From Bacteroidota bacterium (lineage in GTDB: Bacteria; Bacteroidota; Bacteroidia; NS11-12g; UBA955): a stretch of DNA of 37,762 nucleotides. Location of the stretch: positions 1 through 37,762 of the forward strand of contig JABMMZ010000061.1 in assembly GCA_013205405.1 (NCBI GenBank), read 5' to 3'. The position numbers and the translations under genes are program-made. The notes below the pieces were generated by a model that had not been told where the DNA came from, did not search any database, and saw nothing but the letters and a program-made list of their open reading frames with translations. Numbering within the stretch: position 1 is the first letter of the stretch; the number at the start of each line of letters is the position of its first letter. Shown here piece after piece: positions 26,784 through 27,372 of the stretch.

Positions 26784-26813
26784 TTTGTAATGTTAAAAAT
26801 AATTTTATTTTTG
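26784..26813 (+). promoter_or_regulatory. Promoter of the tRNA-Val locus
   Basis: TTTG (26784-26787), an 18-base spacer, and TATTTTTG (26806-26813) together fit the Bacteroidota promoter consensus (TTTG -33 and TAnnTTTG -7) better than any other site in the window. Transcription would begin near 26818, before both the tRNA-like remnant and the intact tRNA. Confidence 0.65.
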
Positions 26814-26830
26814 CAGTCCCAAAAAACAAA

Positions 26831-26905
26831 AGAAAACTTAGCTCAGCTGTTTCAAAGCATTCCTTATTAAAACTGAAGAATAGTGGGGTTTGAAACCCAA
26901 AAAAT
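26831..26905 (+). pseudogene. Decayed tRNA-like sequence upstream of tRNA-Val
   Basis: CTTAGCTCAGCTG, then TTCA and AGCAT, aligns base for base with the D-arm region of the intact tRNA downstream. A GGGGTTTGAAACCC stretch matches the T-arm position. The acceptor stem no longer pairs, and the anticodon arm (around TATTAAAACTGAAGAA) has no 5-bp stem. It lies 9 bases before the intact gene, under the same promoter, so it is probably a former tandem copy. Confidence 0.6.
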
Positions 26906-26913
26906 AATATAAA

Positions 26914-26988
26914 GGGAGCTTAGCTCAGCTGGTTCAGAGCATCTCGTTTACACCGAGAGGGTCGGGGGTTCGAATCCCTCAGCTCCCA
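26914..26988 (+). tRNA. tRNA-Val (anticodon TAC)
   Basis: A 75-base cloverleaf. The acceptor stem is GGGAGCT (26914-26920) with AGCTCCC (26981-26987) and discriminator A. The D-arm has AGCTCAGCTGGTTCAGAGC. The anticodon stem is TCTCG/CGAGA around loop TTTACAC, giving anticodon TAC at 26949-26951. The T-arm has GGGGGTTCGAATCCC. The 3' CCA is not encoded, as usual in this phylum. Confidence 0.95.
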
Positions 26989-26997
26989 CAATTAAAA

Positions 26998-27024
26998 GAC
27001 TTTCAGAAATGAAAGTCTTTTTTT
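26998..27024 (+). terminator. Terminator of the tRNA-Val gene
   Basis: GACTTTCA (26998-27005) and TGAAAGTC (27010-27017) form an 8-bp stem with a GAAA tetraloop, followed by seven Ts. A diverged relative of it follows the tRNA-like sequence at 27239-27318. Confidence 0.9.
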
Positions 27025-27031
27025 ATTATAA

Positions 27032-27262
27032 CATGTGCAAGTTTTATATTCAATTCAACGTGATCAATATTTAGGCCATACTTGCGATACCTTAGAGAAT
27101 CGTTCATCAGCAAATAATTCCAATCATAAAGGTTTTACAGGTGGTGTTGGTGATTGGAAAGTGGTTTACTTTGAAGAGTTTGAAAATAAGTAATCAGCTT
27201 ATAAGCGAGAAAGAGAAGTAAAAGGATAGAAAAGTAGAAAAAGGGTAGGTCAGTTGGTTTAA
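27032..27262 (+). pseudogene. Decayed GIY-YIG nuclease (Uri/UPF0213-like)
   Basis: One frame from 27032 reads VLYSIQRDQYLGHT (the GIY-YIG core, with one residue of YYLG apparently lost), then LENR, then NSNHKGFTGGVGDWKVVYFE, EFENK, stop, SAYKREREVKG, stop, KSRK. This is the typical order of a small Bacteroidota GIY-YIG protein. TAA at 27191-27193 and TAG at 27227-27229 interrupt it; the second stands where family members have Trp (KGWKSRK), a one-base change. The N-terminal strand and true start are missing. After KSRK the frame runs straight into tRNA-like sequence and stops at 27260. It is certainly not expressed as an intact enzyme. Confidence 0.75.
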
Positions 27263-27318
27263 AGTATTCCGCTATTTTAGTGCGGAAGGGTTGGGGGGGT
27301 CGAATCTCTCAGCTCCCA
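27239..27318 (+). pseudogene. Decayed tRNA-like sequence fused to the GIY-YIG relic
   Basis: GGGTAGGTCAGTTGGTTTAAAG resembles a tRNA D-arm. An anticodon-arm-like CCGC/GCGG stem has an oversized loop. The 3' part, TCGAATCTCTCAGCTCCCA, is nearly the same as the T-arm and acceptor 3' strand of the intact tRNA-Val (TCGAATCCCTCAGCTCCCA). The 5' acceptor strand does not pair with it, so it is not a working tRNA. Confidence 0.65.
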
Positions 27319-27324
27319 AACTCT

Positions 27325-27355
27325 AAAAAGACTTTCATTCTTTAAGGTCTTTTTT
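27325..27355. terminator. Terminator after the tRNA-like tail, also facing the PBP1A operon
   Basis: AAAAAGACTTT and TTAAGGTCTTTTTT pair with one G-T wobble. On the plus strand it resembles the tRNA-Val terminator (AAAGACTTTCA in both). On the minus strand it ends in a T run and lies 18 bases past the stop of the penicillin-binding protein gene, so it can serve both. Confidence 0.7.
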
Positions 27356-27372
27356 ATTTTACAATATTTTTT

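Follow-up and report, generated by a model that had tools for sequence, protein, structure and literature searches.

A short locus in a Bacteroidota draft genome is the relic of a small element that is widespread across this phylum. It lies in a window of 37,762 nucleotides (the whole stretch of DNA that was analyzed, contig JABMMZ010000061.1), and all of its parts are on the plus strand. In live form, the unit is about 350 to 380 bp long and consists of one small GIY-YIG gene of about 80 to 90 codons, a terminator, and an incomplete duplicate of the host tRNA. We consider it probable that this element is minimal, homing-like, and self-restoring, that it occupies the tRNA genes of Bacteroidota, and that the locus is one of its dead members. 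Such an element would be among the smallest gene-carrying units imaginable as mobile, and it would reside in an essential gene while leaving that gene working. The many small GIY-YIG proteins of Bacteroidota that are annotated without a function would gain an explanation that can be tested, as would pseudo-tRNAs called as odd isotypes and tandem arrays of tRNA and nuclease genes.

The host gene is an intact tRNA-Val(TAC) with the anticodon UAC (26914..26989; ARAGORN and Rfam RF00005, 69.2 bits), which has been kept functional. Upstream of it lies a degraded tRNA-Val copy, U (26837..26899), found by local alignment to the intact gene with a score of 41. U spans tRNA positions of about 6 to 65, and its anticodon arm is unrecognizable. 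An intrinsic terminator, visible in the sequence, adjoins the intact gene (26994..27026) and is followed by the dead nuclease ORF (27033..27245), delimited by PF01541, a family-specific profile, and translations. PF01541 matches at 27047-27238 with 31.7 bits against a curated cutoff of 22.6, which makes the ORF a member of the GIY-YIG superfamily, and the family-specific profile covers 27032-27259 with 96.2 bits (E 2.4e-27), one TAG and one TAA lying inside the match. These nonsense codons are the TAA at 27191-27193 and the TAG at 27227-27229; in addition, a frameshift after codon 2 or 3 puts the ATG at 27033 out of frame with the remainder. The ORF passes without a gap into a displaced, diverged tRNA-Val copy, R (27246..27318), which corresponds to tRNA positions 8-76 by alignment, and the old frame continues into the tRNA sequence (..KSRKRVGQLV*SIPLF). 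R has lost its anticodon arm; at that point, flanked by tRNA positions 28 and 47, sits the hairpin TTCCGCTATTTTAGTGCGGAA (27267..27287), that is, TTCCGC-TATTTTAGT-GCGGAA, recognized by its position and by its match to a motif in other loci. A diverged terminator copy, located by alignment, ends the locus 3' of R (27325..27357). R and its terminator align with tRNA-Val and its terminator with a score of 67, and the resemblance is not due to chance, since the shuffled maximum is 25. The first-pass annotation had already described the intact tRNA and terminator followed by a GIY-YIG frame with two nonsense codons, the gapless passage of that frame into tRNA-like sequence with a 3' part almost identical to the tRNA-Val 3' end, and the diverged copy of the terminator. 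All of this is borne out by ARAGORN, Rfam, PF01541, the family profile, translation, and alignment; the frameshift, the U copy, and the hairpin in place of the anticodon arm are additions to it.

Where do other members of this family reside? The window's genome, a 2.15-Mb draft that is 83.8% complete, contains only one second GIY-YIG match, which lies inside a 610-codon frame and is probably UvrC. Small GIY-YIG ORFs were searched for in 59 related genomes and the surroundings of the matches were extracted; a separate, protein-only search that set no condition on tRNAs yielded 80 loci from named genomes, which were pooled with the first set. For 81 of the 202 small GIY-YIG ORFs in the pooled set, a same-strand tRNA ends 0 to 99 bp upstream, and such tRNAs drop to 0 to 2 per 100-bp bin between 700 and 1400 bp (the last bin, at ≥1400 bp, is open-ended and gathers more distant ones). 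Opposite-strand tRNAs are absent from the 1.3 kb upstream and the 700 bp downstream of these 202 ORFs. As the first-pass annotation had suggested checking, GIY-YIG ORFs of about 80 to 100 codons just 3' of intact, same-strand tRNAs are found throughout the Bacteroidota, and the 3' ends of these ORFs often lie inside a second tRNA copy. Relatives of the nuclease are present in 125 of 198 genomes in an independent, phylum-wide Bacteroidota sample, and 23 of the best 30 loci in that sample are at a tRNA. The element is real and widespread across the phylum. Targeting of tRNAs is not general to the nuclease family, because, in the mixed sample, roughly every second small GIY-YIG ORF lies away from tRNA genes. 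An origin from phages or plasmids was considered and rejected: searches of both gave no match, a single viral contig matched, and there was no PHROG.

Several variants were met in the course of these searches. A second GIY-YIG class (L043, L052, L053, L055, L062, and L073) lies 175 to 190 bp after various tRNAs and has no tRNA copy; its conserved tRNA-ORF spacer is enclosed by CCGTGTC...GACACGG-like inverted repeats, and its protein tail reads ..KRALKLML... A third group of small GIY-YIG ORFs (L003, L010, L013, and L033), mostly off tRNAs, carries tandem repeats such as CTTCGACTTCGCTCAGGGTAC after the ORF. In Cognataquiflexum, the tRNA-Val/GIY-YIG cassette is flipped relative to conserved flanking genes between two species (L126 and L137).

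The nuclease itself is a protein of about 80 residues with one Pfam domain and one compact predicted domain. An intact relative scores 61.3 bits against PF01541, and the catalytic residues Tyr16, Gly18, Arg27, and Glu63 are invariant in 27 of 27 proteins. The intact relative is modeled with confidence as a GIY-YIG fold (pLDDT 87.9), the tRNA-encoded tail being the least certain part; neither Pfam nor this predicted structure reveals a separate DNA-binding region besides the catalytic domain. Its nearest folds are the UPF0213 protein 1zg2 (Foldseek E 1.6e-3, probability 1.00), which is also matched by sequence (E 0.0021), and Slx1. As judged from sequence, nuclease subfamilies track the tRNA isotype, and the window's subfamily goes with tRNA-Val. 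On a tree of 193 domains, the isotype changes 20 times, compared with 47.2 times when shuffled, and 0 of 200 shuffles are as low; this figure is helped by near-copies in the tree and, because short proteins leave many open forks, is support for clustering rather than for a resolved history. The nearest relatives of the window copy are almost all at tRNA-Val(TAC), and the closest among named ones is L115 (identical with locus L021), whose protein has the C-terminal sequence ...RVAQLVQSIPH, specified by the tRNA copy. Members at tRNA-Val in the named set come from at least six orders, namely, Bacteroidales, Chitinophagales, Cytophagales, Flavobacteriales, Saprospirales, and Sphingobacteriales. 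A further order, Kitasatosporales, stems from a draft genome that is probably misassigned: this draft, labeled Streptomyces griseus (L127), has a member near-identical to one in a Chitinophagaceae draft (L129).

The usual order of an intact element is as follows: the intact tRNA, a terminator, the ORF, a copy of the same tRNA, and a second terminator. The ORF starts about 35 to 70 bp 3' of the intact tRNA, behind the terminator. Of 107 evaluable cases, 82 have a copy of the same tRNA 3' of the ORF, usually without its first 2 to 20 bases, or more. In 37 of 81 cases, it is within this copy that the ORF meets its stop codon; the suggestion in the first-pass annotation that tRNA sequence may serve as the nuclease C terminus thus has support beyond the window. 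An upstream tRNA copy occurs in 54 of 108 cases, some of which are plain second tRNA genes. There is also a mirror class, in which the tRNA 5' part with a hairpin precedes the ORF and the intact tRNA follows it (L011 at tRNA-Arg and L324 at tRNA-Ser); in both loci, the ORF starts directly after the anticodon loop. Some elements form arrays. In L323, a tRNA-Met is followed by five near-identical 365-bp units of ORF, tRNA 3' part, and terminator, exactly the unit that had been proposed from the window; L326 has eight units with a period of about 360 to 367 bp, and L324 has three mirror-class units and then the intact tRNA-Ser. Displaced copies are labeled by ARAGORN as tRNA-Leu(tag), tRNA-Ile(tat), tRNA-Pro(ggg), or undetermined (L021/L115, L122, L136, and L153), and the elements probably cause false tRNA annotations.

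What became of the anticodon arm in the displaced copies? At least 38 loci, the window's among them, have a hairpin of the form T[CT]CCG...CGG[GA]A instead of the arm of the downstream copy, from position 27/28 to 46/47; the motif and the exact position seen in the window (28/47) recur in at least 37 other loci. The 27 distinct hairpins have an invariant core, and pairs 2, 6, and 7 keep their pairing with changes on both sides; the sole mispaired cell among them is in the window's dead copy. Descent of the hairpin from a decayed tRNA stem was rejected, as the arm has been swapped for an unrelated motif at a fixed position. A plain count of stems of 6 or more pairs is given no weight, since that length is also reached by 36 of 110 intact tRNAs. 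A similar palindrome, TCCCGAT(N)ATCGGGA, is scattered in several genomes (G004, G006, G007, G059, G060, G063, and others) at 0 to 48 copies per genome, compared with 0 to 3 for a control pattern, and at two loci (L286 and L290), it takes the place of part of the tRNA D-arm.

This hairpin is the starting point of the chief rival to a homing-like element. The Ssn family comprises site-specific single-stranded-DNA nucleases that target NTS. By analogy, the small GIY-YIG protein could be a site-specific nuclease for single-stranded DNA that targets the hairpin beside its gene and acts in transformation or genome upkeep, with tRNA genes as no more than a preferred neighborhood. A conserved hairpin with an invariant core next to the gene would fit such a function, as would the dispersed palindromes, and the non-tRNA GIY-YIG group with other tandem repeats 3' of its ORF points the same way. 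As a lead, the motif resembles the Neisseria repeat dRS3, ATTCCC(N8)GGGAAT (PMC3898611). A requirement for single-stranded DNA would, moreover, explain why the restored tRNA should be left uncut. On its own, however, this reading leaves unexplained the fixed strand and order with respect to the tRNA, the 3' tRNA copy, and the subfamilies that track isotype. Nor is there close agreement between palindrome counts and GIY-YIG counts, and the former were rejected as a proxy for nuclease activity for want of a clear correlation. We regard an Ssn-like role as unlikely overall, though deserving serious weight.

Is the element selfish at all? Median dN/dS is 0.065 in the tRNA-Ala set and 0.068 in the tRNA-Val set, and the nuclease is therefore under purifying selection. 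Together with the hairpin pairing kept through two-sided changes, and with displaced copies that fold well enough to be called as tRNAs by ARAGORN, such low values would suit a domesticated host module, in which the nuclease and a tRNA-like RNA with the hairpin control the supply of tRNAs or the processing of RNA. A module of that kind would not be expected to be patchy among closely related species, to sit at many tRNA isotypes, to form tandem arrays, or to leave dead copies such as the window's, and we think domestication quite improbable.

In the window's genus, the neighboring transpeptidase gene is kept in 16 of 16 relatives, but no tRNA adjoins it there, so the window's own empty site cannot be read. 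The tRNA-Ala(GGC) locus of Flavobacterium served as the source of empty sites instead and was compared across 30 species. Eleven of these have the ORF and 19 do not, and presence is patchy among closely related species. Orthologous filled and empty sites differ by a clean shift of about 352 to 378 bp, with collinear DNA downstream (for example, L227 and L229 differ by a 364-bp shift over a 1,044-bp alignment with 82% identity). In seven loci, the R-side terminator, located after the displaced copy, matches the terminator of the empty site with scores of 68 to 140, against a null of about 22, whereas the L-side terminator, located after the intact tRNA, has no match in empty sites (20 to 27) and is common to filled sites (65 to 160). 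The ORF, one tRNA part, and one terminator therefore act as one insert, and the host terminator has been displaced to its far side. Exceptions are L228 and L242, whose second terminator is element-like, as expected from double insertions or conversions, and L251, whose match is weak. The insertion point may lie anywhere within the stretch common to L and R. By comparison with Flavobacterium, the window's terminator at 26994..27026 would, in the model, be borne by the element, and that at 27325..27357 would be the host's. The first-pass proposal that the unit could be mobile and that its tRNA portion restores or duplicates the target is supported, as the block is present or absent whole; movement itself we infer. 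Gain and loss cannot be told apart by structure, because recombination between the tRNA copies would restore a scarless empty site; the differences between species could thus be partly losses, that is, old insertions followed by precise loss through such recombination. Some Flavobacterium species without the ORF (L229, L233, L236, and L254) have a full-length pseudo-tRNA-Ala with the hairpin directly 5' of tRNA-Ala, possibly the scar of earlier elements.

These sites also bear on the simplest account. Of course, tRNA genes do duplicate, and many loci have at least two tRNA-Val copies, yet an ordinary tandem duplication, in which one tRNA became a pseudogene and the ORF next to it is unrelated, is hardly credible: the same order recurs in more than 100 loci and many families, the tRNA copy often supplies the ORF's stop codon, and both the skewed tRNA positions around the 202 ORFs and the Flavobacterium sites, where ORF, tRNA part, and terminator change as one block, refute it.

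How might a homing-like element produce what is observed, namely, the architecture, the strand rule, the isotype specificity of subfamilies, the filled and empty sites, the arrays, and the purifying selection? It can be postulated that the tRNA gene is cut or nicked by the nuclease, the likeliest site being the anticodon arm or the bases adjoining it, and that recombination repair from a filled copy inserts the unit. As the unit carries the missing tRNA half, one intact tRNA would remain, and the displaced half would end up beyond the ORF, together with the host terminator. The TCCCG/TTCCG hairpin could then mark the destroyed target in the displaced copy, disabling it as a target or as a tRNA. 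Given its position 35 to 70 bp after the tRNA and behind a terminator, the ORF most likely owes its expression to transcripts that start at the tRNA promoter and read through. Two points speak against homing. (i) The restored tRNA should still be a target, and no immunity mechanism is visible; if it does stay cuttable, the tandem arrays would be explained. (ii) Long-site homing endonucleases usually have a separate DNA-binding domain, which these proteins lack.

Several known systems invite comparison. Integrative islands in tRNA genes use a tyrosine integrase and an att site in the tRNA 3' part. Like them, the Bacteroidota element regenerates the tRNA with a part that it carries and leaves a displaced partial copy on the other side; unlike them, it is about 360 bp long, its displaced copy is nearly whole, and its sole gene is a GIY-YIG nuclease, the block of about 352 to 378 bp containing that ORF and no tyrosine integrase. 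UPF0213/YhbQ-type proteins (such as 1zg2, the closest fold) and Ssn proteins are likewise small, with a single catalytic domain, and a search of the openly available literature found no description of a tRNA association for them. Group I introns with a homing endonuclease occur in bacterial tRNA genes (PMC3984707). They share the target and set a precedent for specificity toward the anticodon region, but the Bacteroidota element restores its tRNA by a DNA copy rather than by splicing. A group I intron in the window was rejected, an Rfam cmscan finding only tRNA and no intron ribozyme. No earlier description of the element was found in the open literature, a search that did not extend to subscription papers and preprints.

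The closest known system is SegB of the T-even phages, a free-standing GIY-YIG homing endonuclease at tRNA genes. According to the excerpted text of the report on it (PMC13096335), SegB is suggested to cleave within tRNA-containing sequences and shows no isotype preference, and in T6, the tRNA and nuclease unit is tandemly amplified, the nuclease 3' end having recombined at the tRNA 5' end. As far as that text goes, both systems have a GIY-YIG nuclease gene adjoining tRNA genes, and both form tandem tRNA and nuclease units. The Bacteroidota element differs in being chromosomal, in encoding about 80 residues with a catalytic domain only, and in keeping to one tRNA isotype per subfamily; further differences are the restored tRNA and the hairpin at the anticodon arm, a copy of this kind being absent from the account of SegB in the same excerpts. 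As with free-standing homing endonucleases, the gene adjoins its presumed target and filled and empty alleles exist; unlike them, the protein has no separate DNA-binding region. Might an autonomous unit of about 360 bp, whose sole gene is a single-domain GIY-YIG nuclease, home into tRNA genes at the anticodon arm, regenerate the tRNA with the half it carries, borrow the displaced copy for the end of its ORF, and mark that copy with a conserved hairpin, and so be a categorically new kind of bacterial mobile element? We hold this tentatively, at slightly short of an even chance. There is a fair chance that the element, which would belong with the homing-type nuclease elements at tRNA genes, deserves a class of its own there, as the chromosomal counterpart to the tRNA-associated SegB of phages.
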